Position numbers and translations under genes: made by a program | Notes under the pieces: model-generated | Told to the model about the DNA's origin: nothing | Seen by the model: only the letters and a program-made list of their open reading frames with translations | Database searches by the model: none | NCBI RefSeq assembly: GCF_030814655.1 | Contig: NZ_JAUSVK010000001.1 | Coordinates: 5,029,001-5,093,000, forward strand | DNA length: 64,000 nucleotides | Direction: 5' to 3' | Origin: Labrys monachus | Lineage (GTDB): Bacteria; Pseudomonadota; Alphaproteobacteria; Rhizobiales; Labraceae | Shown here: one piece after another, positions 1,927 to 17,846 of the stretch | Layout of the letters: every line of letters starts with the position of its first letter | Position numbering within the stretch: the first letter of the stretch is position 1

Positions 1927-1956
<30 letters not shown>
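1147..1956 (+). CDS. AraC-family regulator, C-terminal tail replaced by group II intron sequence
   Basis: Residues about 10-110 form a cupin-like sensor (LHAHDEAQLIFAASG, then VWVPSGVPHW). Residues about 165-250 carry the two-helix AraC/XylS DNA-binding domain (LDIGELASRAATSVRTISRLF and QVAVHAGFASTAAFCFAFR). The group II intron edge is at 1927, exactly after codon 260 (ends RRL). The last nine residues (VESRKGAVA) and the stop are intron sequence. The intron lies antisense, so it cannot be spliced out of this mRNA. Both DNA-binding helices are upstream of the break, so the product may still work. It is divergent from the siderophore-interacting gene, its most likely target (inference). Confidence 0.85.
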
Positions 1957-3853
<1,897 letters not shown>

Positions 3854-3858: not shown

Positions 3859-5776
<1,918 letters not shown>

Positions 5777-8308: not shown

Positions 8309-10235
<1,927 letters not shown>

Positions 10236-10560: not shown

Positions 10561-11754
10561 TCAGGCCGGAGCGGCGGGCGCGGCCAGCGAGGCCTCGATG
10601 ATGCCGGCGACGGCCTTCGCCGCCATCGTTCTCGGCCAGACGAGATGGAAGCCGATGCGGGGCGCGCCGGGCAGCGGGCGATGGCCGATCTTGTGCCCGA
10701 GCGAGGCGATCGAATCGAGGGGCAGCACCGTCAGGCAGCCATGGTCGAGCACGAGGTTGACGATGATCGGAAGGGCGTCGATCTCGAAGATCGGGCCGGC
10801 GGCGGCTTCGCCTCGTTCCGTAAGGGGATCGAGGATCTCGCGGATGCGCTGGCGCAGGCCGCTGCGCAGGCTCGGCACGGCGATCGGCCGGGCGGCGAGC
10901 AGGGCCTGCAGCGGCGTGCCGGTGCCGACGACGTCCCGCGGGCCGACGAGGACGAGCTCGGAGGAGAACAGCTCCCGGCTCTCGAAGCGCCTGTGCCGCA
11001 TCGGCGCATCGGTGAGGGCCGCGTCGAAGCGGCCCGCGAGCAGGCCGGCCATCAGCTCCTCGGCCGTGGTGCTGCTGACGAGCAGGTCCTGGCCGGCCCG
11101 CTGGCGCCGCCAGTCCGAGACGAGGGTGGCGAGGCGGGCGGCCAGGCGGCTCTCATGGCCGATCGGGGCGACGGTGCCGAAGGCCACGCTGCGCCTGTCC
11201 CGCGCGAAGCGGCGCCCGGCCGGCGCCGTGAGGGCCGCCATCGCCTCGACCAGCAGCTGCGCCGCCGCCTCGACCTTGAGGCCGGCCGGCGTCGGCTCGC
11301 AGCCCTCGCTTGTGCGCCGCAGCAGGGAAGAGCCGAACGCCGCCTCCAGGCGGGACATCTGCCGCGACAGATGCGGCTGGCCGAGCCCGAGGGTGCGCGC
11401 CGCCCGGCGGATGCTGCCGGCCTTCGCCACCGCGCCGAAGCGGGCGAGCGCCGGGAGGGGAACGGCATCGCGGGCGGCCCAGCCCAGCGCGTCGGCCGGC
11501 GGCGCTCCGCCGGCGGCGGCCAGGGCGACGAGGCCGGCGAGGAGGCCGGGCGAGGCGCGCAGGAGCGTCTCGCCGGCGAGGGTGAGGGTCAGGCCGCCCT
11601 CGGCGCGGTGGGCCAGTGTCATCGCCACCGCCGCCTCGAAGCGTTCCAGGGCGTCGGCGACGGTCGAGGGGGCGCAGCCAAGCAGCCGGCCGGCGCCGCG
11701 CACCGACCCTTCCTGCAGGACGGCGAGGGCCATGGCGATGGTGGCGGTGTTCAT
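10561..11754 (-). CDS. LysR-type regulator with two tandem HTH domains
   Basis: 397 residues, about 100 longer than a usual LysR regulator. Residues 5-65 look like one LysR winged HTH (ALAVLQEGSVRGAGRLLGCA, PSTVADALERFE, then LTLTLAGETLL). Residues 100-160 look like a second, more canonical one (ARFGAVAKAGSIRRAARTLG, QPHLSRQMSRLEAAFGSSLL, EPTPAGLK). A substrate-binding domain follows to the C-terminus. The ATG at 11754 is 120 bp from the divergent amidohydrolase start, the classic layout for a LysR activator and its operon. It probably controls the 11875-16111 operon (inference). Confidence 0.88.
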   Translation of the reverse strand: MNTATIAMALAVLQEGSVRGAGRLLGCAPSTVADALERFEAAVAMTLAHRAEGGLTLTLAGETLLRASPGLLAGLVALAAAGGAPPADALGWAARDAVPLPALARFGAVAKAGSIRRAARTLGLGQPHLSRQMSRLEAAFGSSLLRRTSEGCEPTPAGLKVEAAAQLLVEAMAALTAPAGRRFARDRRSVAFGTVAPIGHESRLAARLATLVSDWRRQRAGQDLLVSSTTAEELMAGLLAGRFDAALTDAPMRHRRFESRELFSSELVLVGPRDVVGTGTPLQALLAARPIAVPSLRSGLRQRIREILDPLTERGEAAAGPIFEIDALPIIVNLVLDHGCLTVLPLDSIASLGHKIGHRPLPGAPRIGFHLVWPRTMAAKAVAGIIEASLAAPAAPA

Positions 11755-11874
11755 GATCGTCCTGCCGCAGGCGGGGCGGAAGCATCGGCTGTCCGGTTTT
11801 TGACATATACCGCCGGCCGGGCGCCGGCAATAGACTGGCCGCCTGTCGGCTCCGGAGCGAAGGGAACAGCGGCG

Positions 11875-13245
11875 ATGGGAGATTTCGACCTCGTCCTTCA
11901 AGGCACCATCGTCCTGCCGTCCCGCGTCGTCGAGGGCGGCTTCGTCGCGGTGTCCGGCGGCAAGGTGGCGCTCGTCGGCGAGGGCGATCCGCCCGCGGCG
12001 CGCGAAAGCCACCGGCTCGGCCGGGCCCTGATCCTGCCGGGGGCGATCGACGCCCAGGTCCATTCGCTGTCGCAGCGCGGCCAGGAGGATTTCCAGTGGT
12101 CGACCCGCTCGGCCGCCGCCGGCGGGGTCACCACCATCGTCGACATGCCCTATGACGAGGGGCAGGTGGTGTCGTCCGGGGCGGCGGTGGCGGCGAAGGC
12201 GAGCCATGGCGAAGCGACCGCCCGCGTGGATTTCGCGCTGTACGGCACGGTCGATCCCGCCGAGGGCGCGGCGCGCATCGGCGAAATGGTCGAGGCGGGC
12301 GTCTCTTCGTTCAAATTCTCGACCTTCGGCACCCATCCGACCCGCTTTCCCCGCATTCCCCCGCCTTTGATGATGGATTGCTTCGCCGCCATCGCGCCGC
12401 ACGGCCTCGCCGCCGGCGTCCACAACGAGGACCACGAGACGGTGGAGGCCTATACGGCCCGCACGCGGGCGGCCGGCATCACCGACTGGCGGGCGCACGG
12501 CCTGTCACGGCCGCCGATCGCCGAGCTGCTCGCCATGCTCGCGATCTACGAGATCGGCGCCGCCACCGGCTGCCCCGCCCATGTGGTGCATTGCTCGCTT
12601 TCACGCGGCTACGACATCGCCGCCGCCTACCGCGCCCAGGGCTTCGCCGCCACCATCGAGGCCTGCATCCATTATCTCGTGCTCGACGAGGAGAACGATG
12701 TCCGCCGCCTTGGCGGCAAGGCCAAGATCAATCCGCCGCTCCGCCCGCGCGCCGAGGTCGAGGGCCTGTGGCGCCAGGTGGCCGCCGGCAATGTCACGCT
12801 GGTCTCGACCGATCACGTCAGCTGGTCGGAGGACCGCAAGACCGATCCCGACATGCTCGCCAACGCCTCGGGCGTGCCGGGGCTCGAGGTGATGGTGCCG
12901 CTCTTCGTCGCCGGGGCGCTCGCCCGCGGCATCCCGCTGACGGCGGCGGCGCGCCTGATGGCGGAAAATCCGGCCCGGCATTTCCGCATCGACGCCAGCA
13001 AGGGCGCGCTGACGCCGGGGCGCGATGCCGACATCGCCGTGCTGACGCCGGAGCCCCGGATCTACGACGCGGCGGCGAGCGGCCACAACGTCGTCGGCTG
13101 GAGCCCCTATAACGGCCTCGAAATACCCTGGCGCGTCAGCGCGACCTATCTGCGCGGCGAACGCGTCTTCGACGGCACGGCGGTGACGGCGGAGCCCGGC
13201 CATGGCCGCTTCGTCCGCCCGCCGCGGGCCGGCGCGGCGGCATGA
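11875..13245 (+). CDS. Dihydroorotase/allantoinase/hydantoinase-like amidohydrolase
   Basis: 456 residues of the cyclic amidohydrolase superfamily, which opens cyclic amides such as hydantoins, dihydropyrimidines or allantoin. Visible landmarks are the N-terminal beta domain (LVLQGTIVLPSRVVEGG), a Lys that could be carbamylated (SSFKFSTFG), His residues in VHNEDHE and VVHCSLSRG, and Asp in STDHVSW. The usual HxH metal motif reads QVH (residues 61-63), so the first metal-binding His is Gln. The exact substrate cannot be assigned. It overlaps the ammonia-lyase gene by 4 bp (ATGA) and is first in a three-gene operon. Confidence 0.85.
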   Translation: MGDFDLVLQGTIVLPSRVVEGGFVAVSGGKVALVGEGDPPAARESHRLGRALILPGAIDAQVHSLSQRGQEDFQWSTRSAAAGGVTTIVDMPYDEGQVVSSGAAVAAKASHGEATARVDFALYGTVDPAEGAARIGEMVEAGVSSFKFSTFGTHPTRFPRIPPPLMMDCFAAIAPHGLAAGVHNEDHETVEAYTARTRAAGITDWRAHGLSRPPIAELLAMLAIYEIGAATGCPAHVVHCSLSRGYDIAAAYRAQGFAATIEACIHYLVLDEENDVRRLGGKAKINPPLRPRAEVEGLWRQVAAGNVTLVSTDHVSWSEDRKTDPDMLANASGVPGLEVMVPLFVAGALARGIPLTAAARLMAENPARHFRIDASKGALTPGRDADIAVLTPEPRIYDAAASGHNVVGWSPYNGLEIPWRVSATYLRGERVFDGTAVTAEPGHGRFVRPPRAGAAA

Positions 13246-14744
13246 GTACGGCTCGCCCCCTCGTCGCGTTCGGCGAGGCGCCGCTGACGCTGCGCGACGT
13301 CACGGCGATCGCCCGCCGCGAGGCCGATATCGGCCTTTCCGAGGCCGGACGCGACGCGGTCGTCCGCGCCCGCGCCGTGGTCGACCGGCTGGTCGACGAG
13401 GCGATCCCCGCCTACGGCATCACCACCGGCGTCGGCAGCCAGAAGGATTTCGGCGTCAGCCGCGAGGCGATCGCCCGCTACAACGAGCTGATGATCACCG
13501 CCCATGCCACCATGGCGCCGGGCGCGAACGCCTCGCCGGCGGTGGTGCGCGCCGCGCTGGCGATCCAGCTCTCGCTGTTCGCCCGGGGGCGCTCGGGCGT
13601 CCGGCTGGAGCTGGTGGAAAGCCTGCTCGCCCGCCTGCAGGCCGACGACCTGCCGGCCGCCCGGCTCGGCTCCTCGGTCGGGGCGTCCGACATCGTGGCG
13701 ATGAGCCAGCTCGCCCTTCCCCTCATCGGGCGGGACGGTGTGGCGCCGGGCGGCGGCGGCCCCGCCCCCCTGCCGGGCCTGGCGGCCAAGGAGGCGATCT
13801 CCCTCCTCAATTCCAACAGCCTGATGCTGGCGCAGGCCGCGCTGGCGCTGGCCGAGGTCCGCGCCCTCCTCGACGCGGCGACGCTGGCGGGCGCCCTGTC
13901 GATGGAGGGGTTCCGCGGCAATCTGCGCTCCTGGCGCCGCGAGGTCGACGAGGCCCGCGGCCAGCCGGGACAGTCGCGCAGCGGCGAGGCGCTGCGCCGG
14001 GCGCTGGCCGGAAGCCGGCTGTGGCAGGCCGGCGAGGCCCGCTTCCTGCAGGATCCGCTCAGCTTCCGCTGCATCCCGCAGATCCACGGCGCGGCCGAGG
14101 CCGCCTGGGACTTCGCCCATGCGATCTTCGAGACGGAACTCTCCGCCGCCTGCGACAATCCCCTGATCGACACCGCTTCCGGCGCCTTCATCTCCCACGG
14201 CAATATGGAGACCACGGCCTGCTGCCTCGCCATGGACATGCTGCGCCAGGCGCTCGCCAAGGTGATCGAGGCCTCCGGCCAGCGCATCCACAAGATCCAG
14301 TGGCCCGGCTTCACCGGCCTGCCGACCAGCCTGGCGGCCGAGCCGGGCGCCATCGGCGGCGTGCAGTTCCTCAATCTCGGCCATCTCGCCGGCGCCAATG
14401 TCGGCGCCGTGCGCCAGGCCGCCCATCCGGCGCTCCTCAACTATTCCGGCCAGCTCGACGACGGCGTCGAGGACGTCGCCGGCAATGCGCCGCAATCGGT
14501 GGCCGAGACCGTGCGCTCGCTGGTGCCGGCCTGGAACGTCGTCACCATCGAGATCGCCTGCGCCGTCTGGGCCATCCATCGCCGCGGCCTGGCGGCGGCC
14601 GATCTCGGCGAGGGCGTGCGGCCGCTGGCCGAGGGCATGCTGGCACTGCTGCCGATCGGCACGGAAGGCCGCCGGATCTTCGATCTCGGCCCGCTGGTCG
14701 AGCTGGTGCGGGCGACGTCCGGATCCCGCGGCGAGGAGGCGTGA
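13242..14744 (+). CDS. Histidine/phenylalanine ammonia-lyase family protein with altered MIO motif
   Basis: 500 residues of the aromatic amino acid lyase family. Such enzymes eliminate ammonia from His, Phe or Tyr using an MIO group formed from an internal Ala-Ser-Gly. Conserved blocks include YGITTGVGS (catalytic Tyr), LLNSNSLM, QDPLSFRCIPQIHGA and DNPLID. The MIO segment reads SSVGASDIVAMSQLA: residues 148-150 are Ala-Ser-Asp, as if the Gly of GASGDLAP were lost. MIO formation may be altered, or the enzyme may use a different chemistry. The start overlaps the preceding stop. I leave the symbol empty because hutH function is doubtful. Confidence 0.88.
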   Translation: MSTARPLVAFGEAPLTLRDVTAIARREADIGLSEAGRDAVVRARAVVDRLVDEAIPAYGITTGVGSQKDFGVSREAIARYNELMITAHATMAPGANASPAVVRAALAIQLSLFARGRSGVRLELVESLLARLQADDLPAARLGSSVGASDIVAMSQLALPLIGRDGVAPGGGGPAPLPGLAAKEAISLLNSNSLMLAQAALALAEVRALLDAATLAGALSMEGFRGNLRSWRREVDEARGQPGQSRSGEALRRALAGSRLWQAGEARFLQDPLSFRCIPQIHGAAEAAWDFAHAIFETELSAACDNPLIDTASGAFISHGNMETTACCLAMDMLRQALAKVIEASGQRIHKIQWPGFTGLPTSLAAEPGAIGGVQFLNLGHLAGANVGAVRQAAHPALLNYSGQLDDGVEDVAGNAPQSVAETVRSLVPAWNVVTIEIACAVWAIHRRGLAAADLGEGVRPLAEGMLALLPIGTEGRRIFDLGPLVELVRATSGSRGEEA

Positions 14745-14749
14745 CGGCG

Positions 14750-16111
14750 ATGCAGGACCAGAGCTTCAGAACCATGCTCGCGCGTCTCGACGCCTGCGGC
14801 GACCTGCACACCGTCCGCCGGACGGTCGATCCGCGCTTCGAGCTCGGCGCGGTGATGTCGCTGCGCCGGCACGGGCCGGCCCAGCTCTTCGCCTCCGTCG
14901 CCGGCCATGCCATGCGCATCGCCGGCAATGTCATGAATGCGCGGGAGCGCGTCGCCCGGCTGCTCGGGACGGACAAGGCCGCCCTGCCCGGCCGCCTCCT
15001 GGCAGCGCTGGCCTCGCCGGTCCCGCCCGTCCTCGTCGAGGCCGCGCCGGTCCAGGCCGTCGTCCACCGCGCGCCGCTCGACCTCGCCTGCCTCCTGCCG
15101 GTGCCGACCTGGTTCGAGCACGAGACCGGCCCCTACATCACCGCCGGGGTGATCGTCGCCAAGGATCCGGAGACCGGGCGGCGCAACGTCTCGATCGCCC
15201 GGCTGCGGCTCGACGGCGGCGGGCGCGTCATGGTCGGCATCGCCAGGAATCATCACCTCAATGTGCTGGCCGAGAAGGCGCGGGCGCAGGGCGAGAGCCT
15301 GCCGATCGCCGTCGCCATCGGCAACCACGCCGCCGTGCTGCTCGGCTCGCAGATGTATCTCGGCCTCGGCGACGACGAATACGACATCGCCGGCGCCCTG
15401 CTCGGCGAACCCCTGCAGCTGGTCCGCTGCCTGACGGTGCCGCTGGAGGTGCCCGCCGGCGCGGAGATCGTGCTGGAAGGCGCCATCGACGCCGCGGACC
15501 TCGTCGCCGAGGGTTCCGTCTCCGAGTTCCACGGCTTCTATGTCGATTACGGGCCGGGGACGGGCGGCACCATCGGCTGCGTCACCCATCGCCCCGATGC
15601 GGTCTACCAGGCGATCCTGCCGGGCTATGCGCCCGAACATTGCCTGCTCGGCGCCCTCGCCATCGAGGCGGTGTGCTGCGCGGCGCTGCAGCGCGTCATC
15701 CCCGCGGTGCGCCGCGTGTTCGTCACCGATGGCGGCATGGGGCGCCTGCATGCGGTGATCGCCATGCACCGCCCGCGCCTCGGCGAGGGCAAGCGCGCCG
15801 TCATCCTCGCCATGGGCCAGATCAACCTCCTCAAGCTGGTGATCGTCGTCGAGGACGACATCGACCCGGAGGACGCCACGCAGGTCGAATGGTCGCTCGC
15901 CGCCCGCTTCCGCGGCGACGAGGACCTCGTCGTCCTGCCCGGCCTGAAGGCCGACCGCTGCGACCCCGTGCACGAGAACCTCACAGTCACCAAGATCGGC
16001 CTCGTCGCCTGCACCCGCCCGGGCGACGGCGAGCGCGGCAGCCGCTCGGAATTCGCGACGGCCCCGGCGGAGGTGCTGGCGCGGGTCAGGGCGCAGCTCG
16101 GGGACTATTGA
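14750..16111 (+). CDS. UbiD-family (de)carboxylase
   Basis: 453 residues of the UbiD family, prenylated-FMN enzymes that decarboxylate or carboxylate alpha,beta-unsaturated and aromatic acids. Recognisable blocks are LPVPTWFEHETGPYITAGV, RRNVSIARLRLDG, ARNHHLNVLAEKA, SEFHGFYVDYGPGTGG and the Glu-rich core. It starts 5 bp after the lyase stop. A UbiX prenyltransferase, needed for the cofactor, is not in the window and must be elsewhere. Joined with an ammonia-lyase homologue, it suggests conversion of an unsaturated acid such as a urocanate- or cinnamate-like compound (inference). Confidence 0.88.
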   Translation: MQDQSFRTMLARLDACGDLHTVRRTVDPRFELGAVMSLRRHGPAQLFASVAGHAMRIAGNVMNARERVARLLGTDKAALPGRLLAALASPVPPVLVEAAPVQAVVHRAPLDLACLLPVPTWFEHETGPYITAGVIVAKDPETGRRNVSIARLRLDGGGRVMVGIARNHHLNVLAEKARAQGESLPIAVAIGNHAAVLLGSQMYLGLGDDEYDIAGALLGEPLQLVRCLTVPLEVPAGAEIVLEGAIDAADLVAEGSVSEFHGFYVDYGPGTGGTIGCVTHRPDAVYQAILPGYAPEHCLLGALAIEAVCCAALQRVIPAVRRVFVTDGGMGRLHAVIAMHRPRLGEGKRAVILAMGQINLLKLVIVVEDDIDPEDATQVEWSLAARFRGDEDLVVLPGLKADRCDPVHENLTVTKIGLVACTRPGDGERGSRSEFATAPAEVLARVRAQLGDY

Positions 16112-16715
16112 GGGGGCAGGACGAGGCCCCGGCGATGCCGCGCAGGGCGAGAGGGCGGCCACCGCGCTATTCCAGACAATCCGCCTCCGGCAATGCCGGG
16201 GCGGCAAATTCAGATTGCCAGCACGCGATTTTTTGGGTCGGACGCTGAGATGTCCCTTCCTCCCCCATCATGCGGCAGCCCTCCGCCGGGGTACTGAGAA
16301 AAGCGACGGACGAGTCGGGCGATGCGAATTGAAAAAAACGATAGTGGTGGGTTGGCTTCAACAGTCTACATCAGAAGATCTTTTGCCTCGTACATTCGGA
16401 TCTCCCACGGTTATCTCCCGATACTCATATGCTTTATATCCTCGATGCTGTTCTGAGAGATCTCCAATCTCATCGAATCGGCACAAATGAGGCATGAAAA
16501 ATAAAAATACGAACTTACTTAGAGAAACTAATACCCATTGTACTTACAATTAACTGTTGCGCCGGAATTTTCATATCGGGAAAAATGACCAGAGTGACCG
16601 GTATAACGAAGGTCGTCATATCTTGGGCTGACAAAAATATGTCTCTCTTCCCATGCGCGTGACATCAAAATGGTTTATACTGTCCCGGCTGACAAAAAAG
16701 CGGGGTGGGGCAATT
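16112..16715. other. Intergenic region with GC-rich to AT-rich transition
   Basis: The first 200 bp after the UbiD-type gene are GC-rich. From about 16330 the base composition turns clearly AT-rich and stays so to about 17500. No gene is seen before the methyltransferase. The shift marks the left side of a probable acquired island. Confidence 0.6.
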
Positions 16716-17444
16716 ATGATAAATATTTTTACTCTTTCTCATGCGATGTTACATCCATTCTCGACAGAAGGAAAAATTGATCCTTTTGAATTTAAGAAAA
16801 TTCCTAAATGGCATCCGTATAGATCGATATGGACGCTGCATAGTAGAGTTTTAGAACGAAATTCTCGAACATTTCCGTTTAAATTCGATGAGTCTGCACT
16901 TCGTAGTAGTAGACATAGAAGATACGATAGAGGAGAATCTCTTGTTGATACTGCTGTAACGGCACATCAACTCGAACTTTTACAATTGTCGGTTTTATCA
17001 TCGGCAAACGTGGACGGGTATATTGTCGAAATTGGAAGCTATAGAGGCGTAACGACGGCTCACCTCGCAAGTGAAACCTCGAAGACGATTTATGCAGTTG
17101 ACCCGTTTATGGGATATGGGGGAGCGGACGAAGACTACAATATTTTTGAGAGGAATACGCGAAATATCTCCAATATAAATCATATCCGTTTGCCGTCTGG
17201 CTCTGCTGCGGTTGATTTCAAAGGAGATATTTCGTTACTTTTTATTGATGCTGTCCATGATTTCAGCAATTCTTGGTTTGATTTCTGCGCATGGTCTCCA
17301 AAGGTCGCGGCAAACGGCTTCATCGCGATGCACGACGTGGACGATTTTCCTGGCGTGGGGAAAACATGTCAATTAATTAATAGCCTTCCCGCGTATTCAA
17401 TCTGGGCTTACGCACCGAATATCGTTATATTTCAAAAATCATGA
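16716..17444 (+). CDS. Class I SAM-dependent methyltransferase (Methyltransf_24-like)
   Basis: 242 residues. The SAM-binding core is visible: YIVEIGSYRGVTTAHLASE (motif I, E-I-G-x-x-x-G), TIYAVDPFMGY (acidic loop after strand 2), ISLLFIDAVHDF, and NGFIAMHDVDDFPGVGKT. This pattern is typical of Methyltransf_24/cephalosporin hydroxylase-like enzymes often found with glycan or sugar biosynthesis. The start at 16716 follows a GGGGTGGGG stretch; an upstream ATG at 16653 is possible. The gene is markedly AT-rich compared with all its neighbours and has no partner genes, which indicates horizontal transfer. Its substrate is unknown. Confidence 0.8.
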   Translation: MINIFTLSHAMLHPFSTEGKIDPFEFKKIPKWHPYRSIWTLHSRVLERNSRTFPFKFDESALRSSRHRRYDRGESLVDTAVTAHQLELLQLSVLSSANVDGYIVEIGSYRGVTTAHLASETSKTIYAVDPFMGYGGADEDYNIFERNTRNISNINHIRLPSGSAAVDFKGDISLLFIDAVHDFSNSWFDFCAWSPKVAANGFIAMHDVDDFPGVGKTCQLINSLPAYSIWAYAPNIVIFQKS

Positions 17445-17846
17445 TATATATTGACTGCGATTTCTGTCATATAGGAATTTTAACTTATATTTTTTAAGTA
17501 TAGATGCAGCACACCTCAGCCGCAAAGCTCGATGTCCGCTGCCGTTGTCAGCTCCCGCATTTTCTCCCCCGGCGCCGGTACCGGATCCGTCGATCGGAAG
17601 TTCAGGCCGCGCGGCGGCGTTGGCCGCGCGCGCCTGGCTGACATCATCGGCGGTCCTGCACAGGTTTTCGCCGGGCAGGCCATCATTGTCGCGGTCGAGA
17701 TTGGATGCGCTGCAATAATCGAAGCGCCAGACCGCTTCCCGGCAATTGCCCATCTGCTTGCAGCCGCGCTGTGTGCACGAAAGATCCTGGGCTGCCGCCG
17801 AAAACGTCAGAGCGATGGAAGCGCCGATACCGATCAAGAGCCGCAT
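17439..17846 (-). CDS. Excalibur-like calcium-binding secreted protein, tail fused to island sequence
   Basis: The ATG at 17846 has a strong GGGAGG eight bases upstream. A signal peptide (MRLLIGIGASIALTFSAAAQ) is followed by an excalibur-type module: Cys-rich, CKQMGNCREAVWRFDYC and LDRDNDGLPGENLC, the D-x-D-x-DG calcium loop. The last 25-30 residues (KKYKLKFLYDRNRSQ) are Lys/Tyr-rich and encoded by the AT-rich island, so the original 3' end was probably replaced. The stop overlaps the convergent methyltransferase stop. The protein is exported; its role is unknown. Confidence 0.7.
   Translation of the reverse strand: MRLLIGIGASIALTFSAAAQDLSCTQRGCKQMGNCREAVWRFDYCSASNLDRDNDGLPGENLCRTADDVSQARAANAAARPELPIDGSGTGAGGENAGADNGSGHRALRLRCAASILKKYKLKFLYDRNRSQYIS

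Follow-up and report, generated by a model that had tools for sequence, protein, structure and literature searches.

A prenylated-flavin enzyme of the UbiD family in a possible variant of bacterial ergothioneine/histidine-type catabolism

Introduction

What could an amidohydrolase, a lyase of the histidine ammonia-lyase fold and a prenylated flavin mononucleotide (prenyl-FMN) enzyme of the UbiD family accomplish together? This question is raised by three neighbouring genes of Labrys monachus, which lie in the stretch of 64,000 nucleotides analyzed here (contig NZ_JAUSVK010000001.1, positions 5,029,001 to 5,093,000) and called the window below. The original prediction, made from the sequence alone, had described them as an operon belonging to no known pathway. 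This holds insofar as no paper on the lyase/UbiD/ErtD combination was found in our literature searches, which did not reach the main ergothioneine papers; however, the set itself resembles a variant of a known pathway. Known pathways of this kind use a lyase, a hydratase, optionally a desulfurase, a cyclic amidohydrolase and an N-acyl hydrolase. Beliaeva, Leisinger and Seebeck reportedly described in 2021 a five-step bacterial catabolism of ergothioneine, carried out by ErtA-E. We propose, with evenly balanced confidence, that the operon is a variant of such ergothioneine/histidine-type catabolism.

Results

The lyase, UbiD and ErtD genes recur together

We searched for this UbiD type in a sample of 397 genomes of the order, at an E value of 1e-100 or better; since each genome contributes only its few best candidates to the scoring, genome counts are lower bounds. 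At least nine genomes, the window's and eight others, carry it, and in each of the nine a PF00221-type lyase and an ErtD-type gene lie no more than 11 kb away, with at most 10.6 kb separating lyase and UbiD. The three genes co-occur beyond chance, and they do so with three lyase types: lyase2, that of the window (genomes G000, the window's, G050 and G335), ly4 (G071, G230) and ly5 (G229, G301, G304, G366). ErtE is found in eight of these genomes (missing in G000) and an intact local UbiX in seven (none in G000, broken in G335). The trio is therefore conserved in other genomes, as expected of the single catabolic operon that had been predicted, and the anticipated UbiX partner adjoins UbiD in relatives. 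Three genes are nevertheless too few, since relatives encode five enzymes, of which UbiX and ErtE are missing locally in the window.

The lyase2 type was followed through nine loci, namely seven from a scan of the genome collection (G335 is the same record as L005), that of G050, which belongs to the same genus as the window strain, and the window. UbiD adjoins the lyase in eight of them (window, L005-L011 and L028, the exception being L008), and G050 holds the complete set of ErtD, lyase2, UbiD, UbiX and ErtE.

Among plasmids, 11 UbiD records were found and five were read (H1, H2, H3, H4, H6). A lyase lies near UbiD in three of these five, ErtD, ErtE and UbiX are each present in four, and ErtE leaves a remnant in one more. 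On the Rhizobium jaguaris plasmid, ErtD, ErtE, UbiD and UbiX are accompanied by a lyase of a fourth type and by a betaine-type transporter, and Allorhizobium ampelinum has UbiD, UbiX, ErtD and ErtE with a ly5-type lyase annotated hutH. A search of 72,556 plasmid records with the lyase2 protein gave no hit at E 1e-60.

Some clusters contain additional genes. A peptide-type ATP-binding cassette (ABC) transporter and a gene of the phosphoenolpyruvate (PEP)-mutase family stand between lyase and UbiD in G229 and G304, and a PEP-mutase/isocitrate-lyase family gene occurs within UbiD-UbiX-ABC-ErtD clusters (L090:5499-6428, L138:7986-8918; by eye also in L092). A creatininase-family gene (PF02633) follows UbiX in a ly4-type cluster (L088:5725-6501; by eye also in L089) and is an extra ring hydrolase in this lineage. 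Rhizobium tropici CIAT 899 harbors a decayed module (L086:8055-11974) that has kept the lyase and UbiD-UbiX; ErtD was not found in it, and of ErtE the end only is left.

The amidohydrolase is of the ErtD type

The window amidohydrolase scores 774.1 bits on NF058538 (hydantoin-5-propionate amidohydrolase), well over the equivalog cut-off of 600, and only 258 and 203 bits on the allantoinase and D-hydantoinase models, both under their own cut-offs. It is the sole NF058538 match over cut-off in the whole window genome; the same search passed the cut-off in 7 of 398 genomes, the window's and G335 included. The protein is 71-77% identical to ErtD of five canonical-type neighbourhoods, and this strong family match suggests that it acts on hydantoin-5-propionate. 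The replacement of HxH by QVH, which had been put forward as a peculiarity, is real; but Q is present in 20 of 20 aligned rows, including canonical ErtD proteins and one hydantoinase paralogue, and QVH is thus a family trait. Allantoin or dihydropyrimidine catabolism was ruled out, given the distance between the ErtD score and the two others. We also rejected the hydantoinase paralogue cluster of the window genome (L020) as a second ert operon, this genome having no ErtC match and no ErtB over cut-off.

The lyase lacks the usual prosthetic group site

The non-standard methylidene-imidazolone (MIO) site of lyase2 noticed earlier is genuine: its MIO region reads GASD, one residue less than the GASGD of two HutH rows, and Leu replaces the Tyr of QDPYS. 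On the hutH model the protein reaches 228.8 bits for a cut-off of 539.15. A classic histidine ammonia-lyase was thus ruled out, MIO triad and Tyr both being missing. The nearest solved relative of the window lyase is ergothionase, and lyase2 is a PF00221 protein without the Ala-Ser-Gly MIO triad, as would be expected of an ergothionase, which lacks MIO according to PMC13405746. An AlphaFold model of the lyase was middling (predicted local distance difference test, pLDDT, 65) and its top rank was tied with others. Lyase2 is about 30% identical to ErtA and does not group in our tree with ErtA and the T. denticola enzyme, whose row is long-branched; it forms a separate clade, sister to hut-linked lyases. 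The styrene logic of a phenylalanine or tyrosine ammonia-lyase (PAL/TAL) plus Fdc was ruled out by the ergothionase-nearest lyase, the HmfF-type UbiD and the presence of ErtD.

Lyase2 and ly3 are both MIO-less. Glycine-betaine-type binding proteins (PF04069) are encoded near lyase2 in L009 and L011, near ly3 in L085, and also near a hut-linked sister lyase in L029; other transporter binding proteins near modules are SBP_bac_3 (L028), Peripla_BP_4 (L007) and Peripla_BP_6 (L088). A MIO-less lyase together with such transporters points to a betaine substrate. We infer that the MIO-less forms release trimethylamine from the betaine, and the MIO forms ammonia from the matching amino acid.

Three further MIO-less lyases adjoin hutU (L029:9629-11203, L030:1714-3231, L033:8676-10178), with a second HutH-type gene in L029 and L033. 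They may release trimethylamine from hercynine (histidine betaine) and thereby supply the Hut pathway. The window genome also has two more PF00221 paralogues (L021:9150-10721 and L022:9014-10501), with altered MIO sites (GAAD; GY then LSH) and Leu for the Tyr of QDPYS.

ErtD and ErtE are of canonical type in part of the UbiD modules

In relatives the canonical operon has the order ErtA-ErtD-ErtE-ErtC-ErtB. An ErtA-type lyase, ErtD, ErtE, ErtC and ErtB occur in L040-L043, identified in L041 by models or gene order (NF058540 619.8 bits, NF058529 601.8 and NF058530 1061.2, each over cut-off) and in L040, L042 and L043 by similarity; in the stretch of L044, which has ErtD, ErtC and ErtB, neither ErtA nor ErtE was matched. 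Rhizobium tropici PTD1 and the L010 genome carry the canonical operon elsewhere in the genome, and Aureimonas flava unites both systems in one cluster, comprising lyase2-UbiD-UbiX, a betaine ABC transporter, ErtA, LysR and ErtD-ErtE-ErtC-ErtB.

ErtB and ErtC pass their cut-offs in three of the nine lyase2 genomes (G750, G752, G753) and, by genome profile searches, in none of G000, G050, G335, G749, G751 and G754. Class B designates the five genomes with lyase2, UbiD and ErtD and without ErtB/ErtC, that is G000, G050, G335, G749 and G754; G749, G751 and G754 come from metagenome-assembled genomes (MAGs), and completeness is rated at 100% for G000, G050 and G335. In the window genome, the thiourocanate hydratase ErtB is not found over cut-off (a hutU-type match only, 689 bits for a cut-off of 930), nor is the thiohydantoin desulfurase ErtC matched at E 1e-10. 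A hutU-family urocanase was present at E 1e-40 in 15 of 18 genomes searched, the three without a match being G754 and the two genomes G071 and G230, each with a completeness rating of 100%. The product of the HAL (histidine ammonia-lyase)-like enzyme of G071 and G230 is thus left without such a urocanase.

The trees do not set the UbiD-only ErtD proteins apart, as a single clade of the five rows was rejected (approximately unbiased test, AU p 3.8e-11). ErtD of L005, L006 and L011 joins that of the A. flava canonical operon (100/100) inside the canonical clade (95/91), and their ErtE likewise joins A. flava (100/98) inside the canonical clade (98/99). The other UbiD-type ErtD/ErtE rows fall outside, with the ErtE of G050 among them. 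The ErtE tree excludes the L135 row, whose aligned stretch ended past a stop codon, and the ErtD genes of L090 and L092, cut by the stretch end, entered the ErtD tree as part-length rows. Judging from these trees, canonical-type ErtD and ErtE appear to have been retained in loci where nothing but lyase2 and UbiD comes before them, and this retention is our main reason for placing the module in ergothioneine-type catabolism. As the other UbiD-type rows fall outside the canonical clade, the association with UbiD may even be older than the canonical one, although the trees are rooted through long outgroup branches.

A side observation concerns G366, in whose canonical ert operon (L137:8493-13879) the ErtB match is spread over two frames and the ErtE match is shortened; the UbiD module of this genome appears intact.

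The nearest solved relatives of UbiD include heteroaromatic acid decarboxylases

The nearest PDB entries to the window UbiD are 6h6x/6h6v (HmfF), followed by E. coli UbiD, AroY and AnInD in an order that depends on the query. PMC8988006 names 6h6v as HmfF and presents HmfF and AnInD as heteroaromatic acid decarboxylases. The Arg-Glu-Glu catalytic triad, given as the motif RXnEX4(E/D) in PMC5818171, is intact in 18 of 18 aligned UbiD rows, the window's included. With seven close sequences as input, AlphaFold gave a poor model of UbiD (pLDDT 42), which was set aside. In six of the nine lyase2 genomes no UbiX other than that of the cluster was found, so that in those six the cofactor is apparently produced for this pathway.

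The window copy and its surroundings

The layout of the locus (Table 1) is the one first described, three genes that overlap or nearly touch under a divergent LysR regulator, and Pfam confirms the three enzyme families. As the lyase gene overlaps the preceding amidohydrolase gene by 4 bases and is followed by UbiD after 5 bases, the spacing suggests that the three co-directional genes share a single transcript. LysR relatives at 37-57% identity adjoin both canonical ert operons and UbiD-type operons. In GC-rich loci the simple gene caller used here is prone to wrong starts and wrong frames, and tblastn therefore served to place the genes where this was critical.

Table 1. Features of the Labrys monachus locus (window positions).
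Feature	Coordinates	Strand	Basis
LysR-type regulator with two HTH_1 domains, divergent from the operon	10561..11754	-	PF00126 (2 stretches), PF03466
Divergent intergenic region LysR/ErtD, 120 bases	11755..11874	.	gene coordinates
ErtD-type amidohydrolase (hydantoin-5-propionate amidohydrolase family), QVH replacing HxH	11875..13245	+	NCBIfam NF058538
MIO-less enzyme of the histidine-lyase fold (lyase2), PF00221; putative trimethylamine lyase of an imidazole-type betaine	13242..14744	+	
UbiD-family prenyl-FMN enzyme, HmfF group	14750..16111	+	PF01977/PF20695/PF20696, PDB, triad

Right after the operon, GC content drops from about 0.70 to 0.38-0.42 (16.5-17.5 kb of the window). This low-GC patch, a possible rearrangement point that removed UbiX and ErtE, holds a Methyltransf_24 gene directly after the operon (16500-17450). 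The only UbiX found in the window genome is intact, 55% identical, and stands beside a second UbiD. The best ErtE-like gene of this genome reaches 372.7 bits for a cut-off of 520, and ErtE passes the cut-off in G050, of the same genus. The remote UbiX and the distant ErtE paralogue may fill in, or the pathway may be incomplete in the window strain. The second UbiD (L111:5028-8273; G000:C1 about 3762028-3765273) is split, by eye through an IS3-type transposase pair. Upstream of the LysR gene lie three group II introns of about 1.9 kb (1927-3829, 3859-5752, 8309-10211 (-); Rfam end matches), two of them separated by only about 30 bases.

Discussion

How could these enzymes work together? Lyase2 would first eliminate trimethylamine from an imidazole-type betaine and yield a urocanate-type acrylate. 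The substrate would be close to ergothioneine and probably not ergothioneine itself. Given that a desulfurase is missing, our leading guess is a compound oxidised at C2 (ergothioneine sulfonate, for instance), which would not require this enzyme; the T. denticola ergothionase takes ergothioneine sulfonate. UbiD, with prenyl-FMN made by UbiX, would then act on the acrylate in the slot of the (thio)urocanate hydratase. ErtD would open the hydantoin ring, as its family suggests, and ErtE would strip the carbamoyl group to leave an amino acid, probably glutamate.

The role of UbiD is the delicate point. It could be a prenyl-FMN-dependent hydratase that adds water across the acrylate and replaces the (thio)urocanate hydratase, the electrophilic prenylated flavin doing what NAD+ does in urocanase; we hold this to be rather unlikely. 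The family prior argues for decarboxylation and the gene logic for hydration, and a decarboxylation of some kind is the more likely of the two. An ordinary decarboxylation could be at work, in which lyase2 makes an imidazolyl-type acrylate, UbiD decarboxylates this acrylate or a ring carboxylate, and ErtD and ErtE act on a decarboxylated analogue or on a pre-existing hydantoin ring, with an end product other than glutamate. The family prior, the preserved triad and the activity of HmfF and AnInD speak for it. On the other hand, the ErtD and ErtE of one UbiD-only group lie inside canonical clades, whose substrates keep the propionate, and oxygenation of the ring is not a reaction expected of any enzyme in the set. 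We regard this alternative as possible and lean against it. Three routes worked out on paper, namely decarboxylation of urocanate to vinylimidazole, a carboxylated ring substrate and desulfonation to urocanate, were dropped because no step supplies the ring oxygenation.

Several observations weigh against an ergothioneine-type module with UbiD in the hydratase slot. The decarboxylase triad of UbiD is intact, we know of no UbiD enzyme that is a hydratase, and if the acrylate were simply decarboxylated, hydantoin-5-propionate would not result and no obvious route would lead to a hydantoin. L008 has lyase2 without UbiD, UbiX, ErtD or ErtE within 21 kb (its genome was not searched for UbiD/ErtD), and ErtD lies inside the fetched stretch in only six of the nine lyase2 loci (window, L005, L006, L009, L011, L028). 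The ErtD of L088, in a ly4 cluster, stays just below the cut-off of 600 with 588 bits (that of L091 has 730). In 49 kb of Ensifer canadensis, which has ErtD, ErtE, UbiD and UbiX, a lyase was not matched, and in 49 kb of Thalassospira marina, which has ErtD, ErtE, ErtC, ErtB and UbiD, neither a lyase nor UbiX was. The 4 kb that follow the window operon revealed no trace of UbiX or ErtE, and two of the five class B genomes (G749, G754) come from MAGs. Finally, ly4 has an intact MIO triad and passes the hutH cut-off (540.9 for 539.15), ly5 has Ala-Cys-Gly at the MIO site and scores 523.4, so that not every module substrate need be a betaine, and the sister lyases adjoin a true hutU, which could mean hercynine.

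One could assume a hercynine/histidine branch, in which the lyases would yield unmodified urocanate, with UbiD, ErtD and ErtE replacing HutU, HutI and HutG. The score of ly4, the absence of a hutU-family match in G071 and G230 and the hutH annotation in A. ampelinum would fit, as would the conservation of His88 (26 of 29 lyase rows) and Glu410 (27 of 29), positions which presumably bind the imidazole in HutH. However, hutU is already present in four of the five class B genomes, the window's included, and the new set would be redundant there; moreover, ErtD is by its family name a hydrolase of hydantoin and not of imidazolone. This branch appears quite unlikely to us.

The original prediction had the three enzyme classes right and, as one possibility, placed ring opening before elimination and a decarboxylation to a vinyl product. 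This order is very improbable, since an imidazole-type lyase is not expected to act on a ring-opened compound, and ErtD and ErtE act late in the known pathway. The late action of an ErtD-type hydrolase in ergothioneine catabolism indicates instead the lyase first, UbiD second, ring opening third and carbamoyl removal fourth. A chance gathering of unrelated genes, to which the lack of nearby UbiX and ErtE in the window might point, is hardly conceivable in view of the co-occurrence in nine of nine genomes across three lyase types and of the fourth type in R. jaguaris.

If the ergothioneine/histidine-type reading is right, a recurrent alphaproteobacterial gene set builds a prenyl-FMN enzyme into this catabolism, and either bacteria eat a further betaine or oxidised ergothioneine, or the UbiD family has a new reaction. 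A UbiD hydratase would be, to our knowledge, the first UbiD reaction other than (de)carboxylation. In both cases, a UbiD group now annotated only as decarboxylases receives a testable role. In the literature, UbiD with ergothioneine returned only a drug-nutrient interaction review and UbiD with hydantoinase nothing, and urocanate is absent from the prenylated-FMN/UbiD papers among the matches listed. A bacterial ergothioneine sulfonate pathway was reportedly described by Yan, Huang and Zhang (ACS Catal. 2022), to go by the title; it may cover part of this module, and novelty is therefore provisional. By the same title, the substrate class could be shared, and a sulfonate would explain the missing desulfurase.

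Comparison with better known systems helps to place the module. It has in common with the canonical ergothioneine pathway the ErtD and ErtE families, a MIO-less lyase of the same superfamily, a related LysR and the shared cluster of A. flava, but it differs by UbiD and UbiX, by the lack of a thiourocanate hydratase or thiohydantoin desulfurase over cut-off and by its separate lyase clade. The UbiD decarboxylases HmfF and AnInD are the nearest solved relatives of the window UbiD and share its triad; however, where HmfF has Arg304 the window protein has Ile, as counted on their alignment, and the gene context also differs. With histidine utilisation (HutH-HutU-HutI-HutG) the module shares the logic of lyase, hydratase, cyclic amidohydrolase and N-acyl hydrolase, and sister lyases adjoin hutU, whereas UbiD takes the place of HutU, and hydantoin-type hydrolases that of HutI and HutG.

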